Below the pieces are notes generated by a model. It was given only the letters and a program-made list of their open reading frames with translations, searched no databases and had not been told where the DNA came from. Of a DNA stretch of 64,000 bases, positions 3,085 to 64,000 are shown piece by piece (position 1 is the first letter of the stretch; each line of letters opens with the position of its first letter). Source of the DNA: Bacteroidota bacterium (GTDB taxonomy: Bacteria; Bacteroidota; Bacteroidia; Cytophagales; Cyclobacteriaceae). The stretch spans positions 177,879-241,878 of the forward strand of contig JAFDYT010000012.1 of assembly GCA_018266055.1 (NCBI GenBank). The letters run 5' to 3'. The position numbers were made by a program, and so were the translations under genes.

Positions 3085-4110
3085 ATGAAAAAGATTCTTT
3101 GCGCAGTGATGGCTGCGGCGTGTATCACACCGTGGACAGGGTTTGCTCAACACGGGTTTCAGTTACTGAAGAAATCCGTGATCGGGGGAGAAGGAGGTTG
3201 GGATTACCTGAGTGTGGATGCGCAAAACCAGCGCCTTTACGTGTCGCACGGCACACAGGTAGAAGTGCTGAATGCCGTCACGCACGAAAAAGTAGGTGCC
3301 ATCAGCGGACTGCAAGGTGTGCACGGCGTGATTGCGGTGCCTGAGGCAGGCCGGGGCATTACCACCAATGGCCGCAGCAACACAGCTACGATCTTTGATT
3401 TGAAAACCTTGAAGCCGATTGTAGAGTTGCCTACCGGCAAAAATCCTGACGCGTTACTGTATGATTCCTTTTCCAAACGAGTATTCATCTTTAATCACAG
3501 CGACGTGACTACCACCGCCATCGACATTGCGCAAGGCAAAGTAGTAGGTACTGTGGAGGTGGGCGGCACTGCACTCGAAGCAGGCGTATCGGATGAACAG
3601 GGAACGATCTTCGTGAACCTGGAGGACACGCACGAGATCGTATCGTTTGATGCAAAAACCCTGGCCATTAAAAACAAATGGAAAATTGCACCGGGCGAAG
3701 AACCAACGGGACTGGCCATCGATGTGAAAACTCATCGGCTCTTCAGCGTATGCCACAACGGATGGATGATGGTAGTAAACAGCGACAATGGAACACTGGT
3801 CGCACAACTGCCGATTGGCAAACGTGTGGATGGTGTAGTGTTTGATCCTGTATTGAAGTTGGCGATCAGCTCCAACGGAGAGGGCTCAATGACGGTGGTA
3901 AAAGAAATTTCGGCCAACGAATTTAACGTAGTAGAAACGGTGAAGACGCAGGCTGGCGCGCGCACCATCGCGCTTGACGCCGCCACGCATCACGTGTTTG
4001 TAAGCACCGCCAACTACGGTGAGACACCGCCCGCTACCGCCGAAAACCCCAACCCCAGACCTAAGGTGATACCCGGAACCTTTATGGTGATGGAGTTTGG
4101 AATGAAGTAG
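3085..4110 (+). CDS. Secreted YncE-like beta-propeller protein
   Basis: The 341-residue protein starts with a Sec signal peptide (about 1-21, ending GFAQ). It then has repeated blades of the YVTN/YncE type, for example LYVSHGTQVEVLNAVT, TTAIDIAQGKVVGTVEVGG and RLFSVCHNGWMMVVNSDNG. Such proteins are periplasmic or surface seven-bladed propellers whose ligands are usually unknown. The ATG at 3085 is followed directly by the signal peptide. A 7-nt array overlaps the stop codon, and a bidirectional terminator separates the gene from the convergent desaturase. The fold is confident; the molecular role is not. Confidence 0.85.
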   Translation: MKKILCAVMAAACITPWTGFAQHGFQLLKKSVIGGEGGWDYLSVDAQNQRLYVSHGTQVEVLNAVTHEKVGAISGLQGVHGVIAVPEAGRGITTNGRSNTATIFDLKTLKPIVELPTGKNPDALLYDSFSKRVFIFNHSDVTTTAIDIAQGKVVGTVEVGGTALEAGVSDEQGTIFVNLEDTHEIVSFDAKTLAIKNKWKIAPGEEPTGLAIDVKTHRLFSVCHNGWMMVVNSDNGTLVAQLPIGKRVDGVVFDPVLKLAISSNGEGSMTVVKEISANEFNVVETVKTQAGARTIALDAATHHVFVSTANYGETPPATAENPNPRPKVIPGTFMVMEFGMK

Positions 4111-4183
4111 GAGAGTAGAGGTACGAGGGTAGAGGTACGAAAGACGAGGTTAGAGATACGAGGTACGAGAGTAGAAGTACCAG
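4107..4183 (+). repeat. 7-nt tandem repeat array after the propeller gene (11 units)
   Basis: Eleven heptamers run without any insertion or deletion, starting inside the last codons of the propeller gene. Units include GTACGAG (4121, 4163), GTACGAA, ATACGAG, AGTAGAG and GGTAGAG, so the consensus is roughly (G/A)(T/G)(A/T)(C/A)GAG. Read on the minus strand the array gives heptapeptides such as RTSTLVP. The same unit appears after priA, and a close relative (GTACGAC) is found in the large array at 5223-5957. Confidence 0.8.
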
Positions 4184-4198
4184 GATGCACAAACAAAA

Positions 4199-4251: not shown

Positions 4252-5022
4252 TCAGGCGGCTTTTCTTATCCGCTCCAGTTTGATTTCTTTTTGACGCGCT
4301 ATTTCAATCACGCCCACTTTGTCGAGCACCTTGATAATAAAATAGGTCGGGTCAAGTTCATGCCAGCGTATGCCACCGAAGTTGGCCCGTGAGCCATGCT
4401 TGTGGTGGTTGTTGTGATAGCTTTCGCCCATCATCAGGAAATCGACAGGCAGAAAGTTGCGCGACGTATCGCCTACTTCGTAGTTGCGGTAGCCGTACTT
4501 GTGAGCAAACCAGTTGATGATCGCGCCATGAATAGGGCTCATCAAAAACTGAATCGGCAGCAACAGCCACAACCACCAGGCGGTAGCAAAGTTCCAATAG
4601 AACAGCGCGTAGAGCGCACCCCAGAAGATACGCGACGGCCACGAGCGGGCAATCTTTTCAAACGCTTCCCATTGCGGCACGCCATCCGTAAAGCGGCTTT
4701 CTACCTTCATCTCGCGGTTGGTGATGGCCGAGTAGATGGTTTTCGTTTTCCACATCATCTTCCAGATGCTTTCGTCGTATTTGGGTGAGTGCGGGTCGTT
4801 TTCGGTATCGGCAAAGGCATGGTGCATGCGGTGCATCACTCCGTAGCCGTAGGGACTGAGGTAGTTGGAGCCTTGAAAAATCCAGGTCAGCACAAAGAAT
4901 ACCTTTTCGGTAAACTTATTCATGGTAAAGGCTTTGTGGGCGGCGTAACGGTGCAGGAAAAACGTCTGAAAAAACAGCGACAAGTACCAGTGCGCCACGA
5001 AAAAAATGAGAATTGCTTTCAT
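4252..5022 (-). CDS. Acyl-CoA/fatty-acid desaturase, membrane di-iron type
   Basis: The 256-residue integral membrane enzyme has the three histidine clusters of the fatty-acid desaturase superfamily: HRYAAH near residue 24, HRMHH near 64 and HNNHH near 203. These bind two irons that insert a double bond into an acyl chain. Hydrophobic segments at 4-20, 40-56 and 135-165 fit a membrane enzyme. It is shorter than eukaryotic stearoyl-CoA desaturases but of normal size for bacterial members. It likely adjusts membrane fluidity. The leader holds a terminator-like hairpin (5057-5079) about 35 nt before the start, which may make expression conditional. Confidence 0.92.
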   Translation of the reverse strand: MKAILIFFVAHWYLSLFFQTFFLHRYAAHKAFTMNKFTEKVFFVLTWIFQGSNYLSPYGYGVMHRMHHAFADTENDPHSPKYDESIWKMMWKTKTIYSAITNREMKVESRFTDGVPQWEAFEKIARSWPSRIFWGALYALFYWNFATAWWLWLLLPIQFLMSPIHGAIINWFAHKYGYRNYEVGDTSRNFLPVDFLMMGESYHNNHHKHGSRANFGGIRWHELDPTYFIIKVLDKVGVIEIARQKEIKLERIRKAA

Positions 5023-5079: not shown

Positions 5080-5222
5080 GAGGTGTAAGACAAACTCGTG
5101 ACCCGGTTTGTGACAGGCTTTTTGACAAAATTCAATTTTTTTTACTGAACTCTCCTTTTGACGCAACCAACAGCATACTAATAATGGTTCACAAAGAGCA
5201 GGCTGCAGTCACCTCCTGGCCC

Positions 5223-5957
5223 GAAATAGACGTTTTTGGGGCCTAGACGAACGTTTTTGGGTATGAAATAGATGTGGCAGCACGTCCGATGCCCCTCATA
5301 GTGTAAGAAATAGACGTGGAGGTGTGCCCGACGATTAGCAGGCGACGTGCGACGACTGAAGTCGATCGTATGACGATCGAAGTGCGACGTGTTACGATCG
5401 ATGCACGACGTGTTACGACTGATATACGACATGTGATGATCGAAGTGCGACGTGTTACGATCGATGCACGACGAATTACGACTGAAGTGCGACGTGTTAC
5501 GACTGATGTACGACATGTGACGATCGATGTACGACGTATTACGACTGAAGTGCGACGTGTGACGATCGAAGTGCGACGGGTGACGATTGAAGTGCAACGT
5601 ATGACGATTGATGTACGACGTGTGACGACTGATTTACGACGTATGACGATCGAAGTGCGACGTATGACGACTGATTTGCAACGTATTACGATTGATTTAC
5701 GATGTGTGATGATCGAAGAGCGACGTATGACGATCGATGTACGACGTGTGACGATTGAAGAGCGACGTATGACGATCGATGTACGACGTGTGACGATTGA
5801 AGTGCGACATATTACGATTGAAGTCAATCGAGTGCCAACTGAAGAGCGACGTGTGACGATTGAAGTTGCTCGAGTGATGTCTAACGCCCCTCCTGTAATG
5901 TCTAAAGTTCACCGAACGAGGTCTGACGTGGTGTGCATGGTGTCTATGCTGGCATGC
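5223..5957. repeat. 35-unit 21-nt tandem array built from 7-nt subunits
   Basis: From 5223 to 5957 the sequence has an exact 21-nt period with no insertion or deletion. The central units (5349-5852) are well conserved and the outer ones (5223-5348, 5874-5957) are strongly diverged. Each unit splits into three related heptamers, for example GTACGAC, GTGTGAC, GATCGAT. A CGATCG palindrome recurs in many units. Because 21 is a multiple of three, long frames stay open on both strands. The plus frame (GTG at 5316, stop at 5993) reads RRVTIEV heptads. A minus frame (open from about 5912 to 5243, no ATG) reads TSIVTRR heptads. Common variable positions 3, 9, 12 and 15 of the unit are wobble positions in both frames, and all four changes are silent in the minus frame. 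No known protein family is recognised. Confidence 0.85.
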
Positions 5958-5985
5958 CTGAAAAACGATTTCATTAGGTTGCTGT

Positions 5986-6006: not shown

Positions 6007-6079
6007 CCCTGTGATTGGTTTACGAATAAAAGACTTTTGGATGGTGTATAGGGATTGGGTAGATTGGGGTAAGAGAGGG

Positions 6080-6118
6080 CTATATGCAATAGTTGCATAT
6101 AGCGGGATGTTGGCTGCC
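6080..6118 (+). other. Right end of an attC-like cassette spacer (first of the cluster)
   Basis: A perfect inverted repeat (CTATATGCAA at 6080-6089, TTGCATATAG at 6093-6102) is followed by GTTGGCTGCC at 6109-6118. That last motif is the exact reverse complement of GGCAGCCAAC at 6480-6489, so the lipoprotein gene is bracketed by the pair. The GCATATAGCG-GAT-GTTG block recurs before the MlaD-like gene at 9108-9127. The left half of this site is not recognisable. Confidence 0.5.
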
Positions 6119-6132
6119 ATTTATTTTGGACA

Positions 6133-6477
6133 ATGAGGACTCTTCTGACAATCGCGACAATTTTAATTCTAACGACTTCCTGTCAACAAAAATTTGAAAA
6201 GGAGAAATGGCAAACGCAGGGCGACTTGGGGACTTATCCATATCGAGAATCTATGCTTGTGGACATTTTGGACAGTAAACAATTCGTGGGACTGAGACTT
6301 AGACAAATACCAGACTTACTCGGAGCACCAGATGGACTGGCCGACTGTGAGATTTCCTATTCAATTATTTTGGACTACGGATCAGATATTGACCCTGTTT
6401 ACACTAAGAATCTTGTTCTGACTTTTGACAAAGACTCAATCGTGACAGCAATGAAGATAGAGGAGTGGAAAAAATAA
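6133..6477 (+). CDS. Small lipoprotein of unknown function (cassette gene 1)
   Basis: The 114-residue protein has a lipoprotein signal with a TTSC lipobox and Cys17, followed by a polar domain. The stretch LRLRQIPDLLGAPDG resembles the conserved turn of small SmpA/OmlA-like envelope proteins, but the match is too weak to name a family. It begins 14 nt after an attC-like end, and its stop is only 2 nt before the next spacer. This compact layout is typical of a gene cassette without its own promoter. Base composition is clearly more A/T-rich than the flanking chromosome, suggesting transfer. Confidence 0.75.
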   Translation: MRTLLTIATILILTTSCQQKFEKEKWQTQGDLGTYPYRESMLVDILDSKQFVGLRLRQIPDLLGAPDGLADCEISYSIILDYGSDIDPVYTKNLVLTFDKDSIVTAMKIEEWKK

Positions 6478-6479
6478 AC

Positions 6480-6614
6480 GGCAGCCAACAGTGCGCATAT
6501 TACAGCTGCGGGTTTTTTGCAGTTGGAAAAATTATTTCATTATCTTCGTTTGGCTCGTGCGACAAGGCGCGGCAGTGAAAACCGTAGCCGCAATATGCGC
6601 GGGTCGTTGGACGC
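6480..6614 (+). other. attC-like inverted-repeat spacer between cassette genes 1 and 2
   Basis: The outer arms are GGCAGCCAAC (6480-6489) and GTTGGACGC (6606-6614). The inner arms GCGCATATT (6493-6501) and AATATGCGC (6592-6600) are perfect complements. GTTGGAC fits the integron R' core GTTRRRY. Total length is 135 nt, within the range of known attC sites. Nested paired boxes separated by unpaired bases are the hallmark of a single-strand-folding recombination site. Confidence 0.6.
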
Positions 6615-6630
6615 AATTATCAAATAGACC

Positions 6631-7695
6631 ATGGGAAAGAAAAAAGATATTTCGAAAAGAACTAGTGAATTTAAAGGAGTCCTTACAAGTGGGTTTCTAA
6701 TTCATGACCCTAGATTTGTCACTACCATTTCTCTTTTATTTGACAAGGTATACATTCCTAATAACCTTGAGTTTGTAATAGAATTTTCAAAGAAGCATAA
6801 ACTATTACCTTCAATTGACACTAGTAAATTTCAGATGTCGATTGAACCAGTTGATAGTGATACTGATGATGACCCGTTTCAGAACCTAACCAAACAAGAG
6901 AAAGAAACGGCAAATTACTATCTGTTCCATTCAGGTAATTTTTGTCTACACCATCACGAATTATTTCCATCTATACTACAAACAAGCTTATTCGAAAAAG
7001 GAGAACCATTAACTGCCAAACTCCTAAAAAAAGGAAAGAAAGGGAAAAAGAATTTATATAGAGTGACTACAAATCCACTCATTGTTACACTGGACGGATT
7101 TGACAATCTCAATAAAGAGTTAGATAATAACGCGATTCCGATTGTTGAACTAACTAAATCGAAAAACTCCTTTACACCAACAGGGCTGAAGCAAAACAAA
7201 GAAATAGCAGCGATTCTAGCAATGAAATCGATCGAGATGCTATTACCATCTTTTAAGGCAGTTAAGCCTCAATTGATACTTGAGGCCAGGGATAAACTCT
7301 CCGACCAACTACCACAATATTGGTCGACTATGCTGAAATTTTCCCAAGAAGCGAAGCAAATCATTTCAGAAACAAAGTCCTTAACTGAGGCTTTAAATGA
7401 ATGCCAGAATATCGTAGATTCAAATATAAGACCAGCATTAATCGACCTAAATAGAAAGCTGGAATTAGAAAGAAAAAACTGGTTCTACAGGATTTTAACA
7501 CCTGTTGGAAAAACAATTAAGCTTTTAGTTGGTCAACCTGCAATGACCACACAAGATTTACTGTCTGCATCTATATCTTTGACGACAAACGTGACCTCTG
7601 ACTTTGTACGACACAAAAGAAAAATTGAAGAATTACAGAATGACGCTGGACTAACATACTTGTTTGAATTGAATAAATTAATTGAGGGAAGATAA
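6631..7695 (+). CDS. Hypothetical 354-residue protein (cassette gene 2)
   Basis: No family is recognised. The protein is soluble in appearance, Lys/Glu-rich, with a basic N-terminus (MGKKKDISKRTSEF), an acidic patch near residue 75 (DSDTDDD), and a long predicted helical region (about 200-345). There is no signal peptide. The ATG at 6631 lies 16 nt after the attC-like end. The stop at 7695 is followed within 3 nt by the next spacer. Low G+C content and cassette-like packing suggest horizontal acquisition. A defence or stress role would be guesswork. Confidence 0.75.
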   Translation: MGKKKDISKRTSEFKGVLTSGFLIHDPRFVTTISLLFDKVYIPNNLEFVIEFSKKHKLLPSIDTSKFQMSIEPVDSDTDDDPFQNLTKQEKETANYYLFHSGNFCLHHHELFPSILQTSLFEKGEPLTAKLLKKGKKGKKNLYRVTTNPLIVTLDGFDNLNKELDNNAIPIVELTKSKNSFTPTGLKQNKEIAAILAMKSIEMLLPSFKAVKPQLILEARDKLSDQLPQYWSTMLKFSQEAKQIISETKSLTEALNECQNIVDSNIRPALIDLNRKLELERKNWFYRILTPVGKTIKLLVGQPAMTTQDLLSASISLTTNVTSDFVRHKRKIEELQNDAGLTYLFELNKLIEGR

Positions 7696-7697
7696 CT

Positions 7698-7869
7698 GCG
7701 CCCAACAAAATGTATGTGCCATTGTGGGGTGTAGTGTAAATTTGTAGTTTGGTTTTCAAACAACGTTCGGTCACGGTGGACCGTTTTGGGGTAAGTCGGG
7801 CAAAACAGTCGTTCCTCCTTTATTTACCCTCCTATGTCCGCAACGTCACATACACAAACGTTATGTGCC
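7698..7869 (+). other. attC-like inverted-repeat spacer between cassette genes 2 and 3
   Basis: GCGCCCAAC (7698-7706) contains a perfect integron R'' core, GCCCAAC (RYYYAAC). The inner arms TGTATGTG (7711-7718) and CACATACA (7847-7854) are perfect complements. The far end is GTTATGTGCC (7860-7869). The near end mirrors GTTGGACGC before gene 2 (8 of 9 bases complementary). Length is 172 nt, slightly long for attC. Confidence 0.55.
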
Positions 7870-7888
7870 ATAATTTGACAAAGAGTAA

Positions 7889-8848
7889 ATGAGTTTAAAG
7901 GTTAGAGAACAATTTCCAGAATTTGAAGTCGATGAGTTCACTGAAGAAAAAGAACTAACGCTGGACGAGACAATAAACGCACTAAAAGAATTTAACTGGA
8001 CAGAAGAATATTCCAAGAGTGTCAAAATAATTGAGCAACACGCTGAACCCTCGATTTGGTTAAAGAATCAGTGTGGAGACAAACTATCGATCTATTGGGC
8101 AGAGAACAATAAGTTCGCTATTTACTTTTCTCCAAAAATGCGAAGATCAAGCACTTCAATTGTAAATGGACTTGATCAAGTCGATGCTGTCGTTAAATTA
8201 TTCGACAGAGGTGAGAGACATTTGCTCCTAAATCGACTTAGGACGTCTGAGTATCATCACAAAACTCATTGGTTTCTTGACTTGATACAATTCTTTATTC
8301 ACAAAAATAAAACGAGGACTTCACGAGAAATTGTCAAAGAAGAATTTGTCTATCAGATGAAGAATCTTTCGATAATTAAGAAACTCACGTTTTCTCTGCT
8401 GTTTTTTCTAATGCCTTCAACAATCTGGGTTTATTCTTACTTGGTCAATAATAAGCCGTTTAATCTAACAGCGTTTTTAGGGATACAAACCTTTATGACA
8501 TTGATGGCCACCCCAGGAATTATTATTGCAATCAATCATTGGAGAAAGAACGGCAGATGGAATGTCTATTTTAGAAAAGGAGACAACAAGTTTATTATAG
8601 TGTCCCCGACAGGAAAAGAAATCTTTGACAAAGTTGATTTTACAAAGAGGTCAACTACAGTGAACGACAGCCACGCACCCTGGAACAGTTTTGAGTACAC
8701 AACACTGATAAAAAACACTGGAGAACAAATTCACTTTTCAAATCTGTTAATTCCAACATCGGACTTTGATAAATTATTTGGACGAATTGAAGAAACGAGG
8801 TGCAAAAGCGGATTTCAAATAATAAAGGATAAGAAAATTAAAGATTAA
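7889..8848 (+). CDS. Hypothetical membrane protein with two transmembrane helices (cassette gene 3)
   Basis: The 319-residue protein has a cytoplasmic-looking N-terminal domain (about 1-160). Two adjacent hydrophobic helices follow (about 165-185 and 193-213), then a C-terminal domain of about 105 residues rich in aromatic and basic residues. No catalytic motif or known family is recognised. The hairpin of two helices between soluble domains resembles a membrane-anchored sensor or effector layout, but that is speculation. The gene starts 19 nt after one attC-like site and ends 8 nt before the next. It is A/T-rich like the other cassettes. Confidence 0.75.
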   Translation: MSLKVREQFPEFEVDEFTEEKELTLDETINALKEFNWTEEYSKSVKIIEQHAEPSIWLKNQCGDKLSIYWAENNKFAIYFSPKMRRSSTSIVNGLDQVDAVVKLFDRGERHLLLNRLRTSEYHHKTHWFLDLIQFFIHKNKTRTSREIVKEEFVYQMKNLSIIKKLTFSLLFFLMPSTIWVYSYLVNNKPFNLTAFLGIQTFMTLMATPGIIIAINHWRKNGRWNVYFRKGDNKFIIVSPTGKEIFDKVDFTKRSTTVNDSHAPWNSFEYTTLIKNTGEQIHFSNLLIPTSDFDKLFGRIEETRCKSGFQIIKDKKIKD

Positions 8849-63364: not shown

Positions 63365-64000
63365 ATGCACATCACTGCGAACAGCTTCTCGATTTCCATT
63401 TTCTCGTTAGCTAATACCATCCTCTTCATACGAGATACCGGAATGTTACAAGGACCGGTAGTCGCTCGGTCTCTGTTGACTAAAATCAAATTCGGCGCTG
63501 AAATAATCATAGTGGGGAGTGGTTTGACCAGGGTAAGGTGTGAAATCACTACTACGCATGCTGTTAAAATCAACATTGGGGCTATTATAATTATAACAGG
63601 TGCTGTTATAATTATTATGGGTGCTAAAACAATTGTAACAGGTGCTGAGATAATTATAACAGGTGCTGAAACAATTGTAACGGGTGCTGAGATAATTATA
63701 ACAGGTGCTGAAACAATTGTAACGGGTACTGAGATAATTATAACGGGTGCTGAAACAATTATAACAGGTGCTGTTATAATTATTATGGGTGCTGAAACAA
63801 TTGTTATGGGTGCTGAAACAATTGTTATGGGTACTGAGATAATTATAACGGGTGCCGAAACAATTGTTATGGGTACTGGAACAATTGTTATGGGGGCTGA
63901 AACAATTGTTATGGGTACTGGAACAATTGTTATGGGTGCTGAAACAATTGTTATGGGTACTGGAACAATTGTTATGGGTGCTAAAACAATTGTTATGGGT
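63365..64000 (+). CDS. Open frame made mostly of heptapeptide repeats (partial, runs off right edge)
   Basis: From the ATG at 63365 the frame is open to the end of the window (212 codons). The first 43 residues are non-repetitive or very diverged and include a hydrophobic stretch (SISIFSLANTILFI). From residue 44 every 7 residues repeat: early units such as GAEIIIV and RCEITTT are diverged, later ones are GAETIVM, GTGTIVM and GAETIVT. A purine-rich stretch precedes the ATG. No known family is recognised and the 7-residue period does not fit hexapeptide or pentapeptide beta-helices. Whether it is translated is unknown, since a 21-nt period keeps frames open automatically. Confidence 0.45.
   Translation, partial: MHITANSFSISIFSLANTILFIRDTGMLQGPVVARSLLTKIKFGAEIIIVGSGLTRVRCEITTTHAVKINIGAIIIITGAVIIIMGAKTIVTGAEIIITGAETIVTGAEIIITGAETIVTGTEIIITGAETIITGAVIIIMGAETIVMGAETIVMGTEIIITGAETIVMGTGTIVMGAETIVMGTGTIVMGAETIVMGTGTIVMGAKTIVMG
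63494..64000 (+). repeat. Second 21-nt tandem array (24 complete units, continues beyond window)
   Basis: Twenty-four units of exactly 21 nt run from 63494 to 63997 with no indels. Divergence falls from left to right: the first four units are barely alike, the last eight almost identical. Most later units contain the 10-bp palindrome AACAATTGTT. Some units recur as alternating pairs (GAETIVM and GTGTIVM), suggesting duplication of 42-nt blocks. The repeat is direct, without unique spacers. Confidence 0.9.

Follow-up and report, generated by a model that had tools for sequence, protein, structure and literature searches.

The closest known object to the array described here is BrickBuilt, a minisatellite-MITE of Porphyromonas gingivalis which, in the excerpted account of Klein et al. 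(2015; PMC4596501), consists of 23-nt units with a leader and a tail, has IS5-like ends and occurs as 19 dispersed intergenic copies in one strain. The same excerpt describes MITE464/PgRS, which has a 41-nt unit and terminal repeats almost identical to those of BrickBuilt. Bidirectional promoter activity is a further trait of the BrickBuilt type. Another precedent is provided by the TAACTGA heptamer direct repeats, reported in the excerpted text of MacGregor (2015; PMC4679880) from Beggiatoaceae, Cyanobacteria and some Bacteroidetes.

The window analysed here is a stretch of 64,000 nucleotides (contig C3, positions 177879-241878) within a 4.79-Mb genome of 21 contigs. Judged by sequence comparison, array A1 in this window belongs to a repeat element that is dispersed and changes fast, and whose class has in common a pitch of about 21 bp and not a sequence. 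The features referred to below are as follows, in window coordinates.

4252..5022, minus strand: fatty acid desaturase gene, context and not part of the element (PF00487, E 7.7e-18)
5199..5347, plus strand: 5' edge or leader region of A1, its outer units doubtful (support for row 5327, marginal scores for 5243 and 5264)
5348..5872, plus strand: A1 core, 25 clear 21-nt units (each row outscores all 20,000 background 21-mers; TRF; A2 match E 5e-82)
5873..5935, plus strand: three decayed in-phase units of A1 (p 0.0003-0.0134, weight matrix)
5894..5961, plus strand: tail that A1 has in common with A2 (C8) and A12 (C2), overlapping the decayed units (A1/A2 84% over 44 nt; A2/A12 77% over 61 nt)
6133..6477, plus strand: small ORF, lipoprotein-like by eye, context, on the side where the partner A2 carries an fn3-like gene
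63539..64000, plus strand: A3, a second orphan array of the class (TRF; match to gene-linked array C1:1-351, E 7e-65)

TRF assigned A1 a period of 21 at 5330-5866 (25.6 copies), together with an 84-nt higher-order period. When rows were scored with a weight matrix made from 24 core units, against a background of 20,000 21-mers from the window, 29 of the 35 claimed rows were supported at p<0.014. These comprise 25 rows spanning 5348-5872, for 24 of which the score is circular as they built the matrix, plus the rows at 5327, 5873, 5894 and 5915. Scores are marginal for rows 5243 and 5264 (p 0.03-0.04), and rows 5222, 5285, 5306 and 5936 have no support against the same background; based on these scores, the outer 5' 'units' are mostly not demonstrable. 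The final rows (5894-5961) are partly the tail common to A2 and A12, and the leader stretch common to these two loci is weak at most in A1. The original prediction of 35 indel-free 21-nt units thus stands as a length-constant array of 25 clear and four decayed in-phase units, the other six rows being marginal or unsupported. A1 contains no indels; two class arrays in other genomes shift by 1-2 nt (units inspected by eye).

Each unit had also been described as three related heptamers. A weak 7-nt sub-period is indeed present in A1, but an exact 7-nt unit was not found there, with lag-7 identity at best 0.59 against up to 0.84 at lag 21. The sub-period is seen in A1, in A2, in one stretch of locus L122 and in short intergenic 7/14-nt runs, and was not seen in the remaining arrays among 20 array loci fetched from genus genomes. 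Such a sub-period, and the frequency of short 7/14-nt runs here, would fit an ordinary slippage minisatellite grown from a heptamer without any link to a gene. In the majority of the genomes surveyed by Mrazek (2007; as relayed in the excerpted text of PMC4679880), heptamers were more frequent than any other longer simple repeat. We consider this origin improbable, as the other fetched arrays mostly keep the 21-bp pitch without the sub-period, and it is already weakened by the gene association described below. Tests for enrichment of palindromes, dyads and stems in 26 unit consensuses gave p 0.02, 0.06 and 0.09, respectively.

Several observations concern the surroundings of A1. The desaturase gene is not syntenic in the seven relatives examined, and therefore neither an empty site nor an orthologous A1 was found. 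At 5080-5120, 5' of this gene, TGTCACA is followed after ~15 nt by TTGTCTTAC (by eye), a motif that also occurs in relatives (L027-L033) despite the non-syntenic neighbourhood. Short 14-nt (7-nt based) intergenic arrays at 2889-2969 and 4082-4191 sit immediately behind the ends of a priA-like gene and a beta-propeller gene. On the 3' side of A1, 6060-7890 may be an integron-like cassette array, with long imperfect palindromes (6080-6125, 6478-6625, 7697-7885) between small unknown ORFs; the ends of these palindromes resemble what we take to be putative attC sites. A3 runs on to C3:242.0k, interrupted by Ns, and near it a palindromic element resembling that 3' of A1 (C3:242.5-243.6k, L005 8538-9600) is followed by an ORF that, by eye, resembles a putative CD-NTase.

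A search with blastn gave a single other locus in 39 genomes, A2 at C8:94.5-95.2k of this genome (70% identity, E 1e-64). The conceptual translation of A1 matches 12 of 62 same-genus genomes, this one included, and the 20 loci fetched after this search are arrays with lag 21 and/or 42 and differing units. Because the query is a 7-residue repeat, arrays found in relatives in this way are biased to 21-nt multiples, a bias that gene-based array searches lack. A census for arrays of at least 150 nt at TRF score 100 covered 1.264 Mb of this genome (the window and 60 tiles, partly on contigs known to carry arrays, with the known sites A2, A11, A12 and A14 skipped). It gave nine arrays, with a period of 21 nt in six, 20/40/60 nt in two and 41 nt in the remaining one. 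In six other genomes, tiles amounting to 100-200 kb per genome held no array of census size and period; short lag-21 stretches were seen in genomes G008 and G028.

The array elements are ~0.8 kb in length, with flanks that are common within families. Family I comprises A1, A2 and A12, family II A8, A9, A11, A14 and A16, and family III A4, A5 and part of A13; in all three, the dispersed copies have a conserved leader and tail. Inspected by eye, the homology ends of families I-III showed no recognisable terminal inverted repeats or target duplications. Unit sequences are without match between families, and family II alone holds three different units, every one of 21 nt. The family II leader carries two boxes, TTGAY-N4-RTYAA, which we take to be CRP/FNR-like. 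In A8, A9, A14 and A16 they are spaced by 42 nt, and some of them deviate at one position. A 20-nt signature round the second box has four exact occurrences in the genome (0 mismatches), each adjoining an array. These boxes were observed in family II and not in the family of A1.

The ORF adjoining A2 (gene at C8:95.5k) encodes a ~200-aa protein with an fn3-like C-terminus and an N-terminal part of helical look by eye. The best Pfam matches of the linked protein family are fn3-like, and lie below the curated cut-offs where cut-offs are given. The original prediction named no matching family for the array; one exists, and it is tied to a gene outside the interval first considered. The gene has 16 matches in this genome, two of them cut by contig ends. 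Of the 14 copies with readable upstream sequence, 13 have a clear 5' array (nine 21-nt based, two 42, one 20/40 and one 41) and in the last the array is decayed (lag 42 at 0.71); as the search was by gene, this count is free of period bias. The list for this genome holds 26 arrays, of which 13 sit 5' of the ~200-aa gene. A1 itself has no adjoining fn3-like gene, with no homolog in the window by tblastn or in its first 12 kb by profile search; its copy A2 has one. In this assembly, several contigs break off within or next to a gene-linked array, or within the gene itself (C8:1, C1:1, C6:1, C2:1, C8:305466, C7:180383), and assemblies therefore probably undercount gene-linked arrays.

The link between array and gene recurs elsewhere. 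At E 1e-10, fn3-like homologs were found in 8 of 62 same-genus genomes, including this one. In the seven others, the best lag in the 1300 bp upstream was one of 20, 21, 41, 42 and 63, with identity of at least 0.62, at 14 of 16 loci. Random 1300-bp windows scanned with this lag set reached the threshold in 23 of 1500 cases in the own genome and in 0 of 1500 in five other same-genus genomes. A phylum search gave fn3-like matches in 10 of 395 genomes; outside the genus, clear 21/42-nt upstream arrays accompany five of the seven full-length homologs and weak ones the other two, and three partial, fn3-only matches have no upstream array.

Among named genomes we used the best 80 of 85 loci, 75 of which have at least 500 bp upstream. 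By their record titles, which for MAG taxa are possibly wrong, they belong to Bacteroidetes, Verrucomicrobia and planctomycetes, and to Pyrinomonadaceae and Blastocatellia, which we take to be Acidobacteriota. A 1000-bp scan, with a lag set that adds 22 and 43 to that of the random control and similar thresholds, assigned 60 of the 75 loci (48 strong, 12 weak) a best upstream lag of 20-22, 41-43 or 63. These counts are not independent, because the named loci overlap those of the genome searches above (L257 is G200; L270, L271 and L276 resemble G043/G047) and include ten from Sphingobacterium. Some same-genus loci are also in this set under the title Cytophagales, as inferred from matching array positions. 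The other 15 loci lie off-set, at least five with a best lag of 44 or 60 and nine with weak off-set lags only, and a strong in-set lag occurs downstream of the gene in 2 of 72. Base pitch, tallied within lags 18-24, 38-46 and 60-66, is 21 in 50, 22 in 6 and ~20 in 2 of the 58 arrays that reach an identity of 0.62 upstream of the gene. The median distance between the end of these arrays and the start of the matched gene is 280 bp.

Among the five loci viewed at larger scale, the array is weak or missing at the A37T11 copy and at one of the two from Sphingobacterium, and no common neighbour of the fn3-like gene was seen by eye in the five 8.5-9-kb stretches. A1-like arrays were fetched at 14 loci from other genus genomes, and 12 of these loci have no fn3-like gene in the 4-8 kb examined.

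Other ORFs were noted near the gene. A DUF5675-family ORF (Pfam E 2.5e-30 for the copy tested) lies 3' of it at 11 loci, of Sphingobacterium (L304-L333) and Chryseolinea (L300), and an HTH_17-like ORF, under the cut-off, precedes it at ten Sphingobacterium loci. A collagen-like ORF is found 3' of it at nine Verrucomicrobia- or Prosthecobacter-titled loci. In the 5.1-Mb genome of Bacterium A37T11 (FOBR01), the fn3-like protein family has 27 matches.

Taken with the census, the gene-based loci lend support to the spacing rule that had been put forward as a constraint on A1, as a pitch near 20-22 bp for the class, though helical phasing is not thereby proven. A strict helical phase is doubtful because arrays of 20, 22, 41 and 44 nt exist.

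Alternatively, the arrays could be a minisatellite-MITE like BrickBuilt, selfish or neutral and mobilised by a transposase in trans, with the array functionless and the fn3-like gene a passenger or common neighbour. The dispersed copies with common leader and tail and the many gene-less orphans fit such an element, and BrickBuilt, as the excerpt of PMC4596501 presents it, is a comparable object from the same phylum. We nevertheless rate this as unlikely, given that distant genomes, whose units differ, repeat the link with the array on the 5' side of the gene, and that no terminal inverted repeats were recognised by eye at the homology ends of families I-III.

The original prediction had offered a reading frame as the other possible constraint, with the minus frame TS(I/V)V(T/I)RR as the candidate. 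The two open frames of A1 are at chance level, since column-permuted arrays are expected to have just 0.5-0.6 stops in them. The codon-usage score of the minus frame TSIVTRR (-0.36) is the lowest of six, and that of the plus frame is -0.11, compared with -0.03 to +0.22 for four long ORFs and the desaturase gene. No frame of six is open in 7 of 24 class arrays and in 24 of the 58 arrays upstream of the fn3-like gene, and periods of 20, 22, 41 and 44 likewise speak against translation as a heptad-repeat protein. There are signals in the opposite direction. A1 and A2 share an open plus frame, and stops in one frame are too few in A2 (0 vs 2.3 expected, p 0.01) and A10 (0 vs 3.5, p 0.01). Variability in A1 is highest at the third positions of the plus frame (p 0.03, or 0.10 if any class may win), with a weaker excess in A2 (p 0.07 / 0.21), and A8, A9 and A14 have an ORF running through the array with an A-rich start context by eye. 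In the family II leaders, however, three paralogous pairs show the ORF part to be less conserved (72-77% identical) than the part upstream (76-84%), without third-position excess, so that the proposed comparison of synonymous and nonsynonymous change gave no coding support in these paralogs, against the weak A1/A2 signal. The arrays are not supported as protein genes, and we regard a translated heptad-repeat protein as very improbable.

A scan of the genome contigs with the A1 translation found no relative. Pfam matches of array frames (DUF948, coiled coils, H-kinase_dim) were set aside as composition, the H-kinase_dim match just exceeding its curated cut-off. RNA structure of A1 showed no excess over shuffles on either strand, and three Rfam matches under gathering scores were taken as chance.

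Gene-linked copies were also compared with each other. Between C17:610k and C12:5.0k, gene DNA is 93%, leader 85% and tail 94% identical, and the arrays are unmatched; between C1 and C6 the gene is 84% and the tail 79% identical, and the arrays ~55%. From these two comparisons, the array changes faster than its surroundings or is replaced.

Orphan arrays tend to resemble particular gene-linked ones. Seven match a gene-linked array at E 2e-24 to 1e-106 (A1-A2, A3-C1, A5-A4, A8-A9, A11-A14, A15-A7 and a 20-nt pair), with A1-A2 at E 5e-82 compared with 1e-16 for the best foreign control. Searching the genome with pieces of six more gene-linked arrays gave orphan partners for C14:81k, C11:413k (both array and partner of 41 nt) and C10:19k, and none for A13, C17:611k and A16 (whole genome, 126-nt queries). 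Ten of 13 gene-linked arrays thus have an orphan partner, the whole-genome searches having covered A1 and six gene-linked arrays. The chance of ten distinct partners is 0.0075, on the assumption of an unbiased orphan list, and the actual list is biased. The C6 array has one further 48-nt match, at a contig end, and A3 and A5 each have a weaker second match (E 7e-25 and 1e-22). The pairings A6-A16, A10-A2 and A12-C17 were not counted, being within the composition level (foreign control down to 1e-19). G069 carries a single fn3-like gene at E 1e-10, whose array matches one orphan at 85%; no match of this kind links the known orphans of G043 and G003 to the gene-linked arrays of the respective genome. 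No neighbour gene is common to the 12 orphan arrays examined.

This pairing might reflect a cognate two-locus system, in which each fn3-like protein (or leader transcript) reads its own array and one matching orphan; in such a system the gene at C8:95.5k would have its trans site in A1. We think this possible but on balance unlikely. If true, the arrays would diversify quickly, like satellites with a conserved ruler, and fast diversification would therefore make the pairs private.

The reading we favour, and hold to be moderately probable, is that A1 is a gene-less orphan of a dispersed unit consisting of a conserved leader, a non-coding array of ~21-bp pitch and hypervariable sequence, a conserved tail and a ~200-aa fn3-like gene, the array being a putative protein-binding platform in cis. 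At the level of sequence, the anatomy of the unit, the 5' position of its array, its spread over phyla, the turnover of the array in a conserved frame and the matching of most gene-linked arrays to an orphan are shown. Mechanistically, units would be homogenised, with whole units gained and lost through unequal exchange or slippage, such that homogenisation acts in the middle of the array and decay at its edges. The pitch would be held near two helical turns by the use of the array as a repeated protein-binding platform, in cis on the gene, and the protein that binds it is perhaps the linked fn3-like protein. Orphans would arise from duplication of the 5' part, and may serve as decoy sites.

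As the class keeps its pitch and place while its sequence turns over, a rule other than sequence is needed, for which DNA geometry, a binding protein and the copying mechanism are candidates. Arrays of ~21 bp in intergenic DNA gain a concrete genetic partner, which can guide the search for them across many sequenced genomes, and both the cis-regulatory and the cognate-pair hypotheses become testable.

The pairing of array and protein looks to be undescribed: open-licence literature (titles and abstract beginnings, with searching partly directed at heptamers and minisatellites) gave nothing linking such arrays with an fn3-like gene. CRISPR loci have a leader followed by a regularly pitched array of varying content beside a protein gene. 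The layout here is similar, but the units are head-to-tail copies with no division into repeat and spacer, and, unlike CRISPR, three linked proteins have no match in PADLOC-DB and the family's best Pfam matches are fn3-like. The likeness to the TAACTGA repeats, which are also 7-nt-based intergenic arrays and lie near start codons in some species (excerpted text of PMC4679880), is confined to the sub-structure of A1; theirs is one fixed heptamer, whereas here the unit is ~21 bp, its sequence is not fixed and a heptamer sub-period is mostly absent. With BrickBuilt, as far as its excerpted description goes, the arrays have in common the phylum Bacteroidota, tandem units of about two helical turns, leader and tail flanks and dispersed copies. 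BrickBuilt has one consensus unit of 23 nt and recognised inverted ends, whereas here the unit is 21 nt, differs between copies at constant pitch, and is flanked by no inverted ends recognised by eye. Finally, the excerpt describes BrickBuilt without a linked gene, whereas here 13 of 26 listed arrays stand 5' of a ~200-aa gene, in an arrangement that recurs in other phyla.
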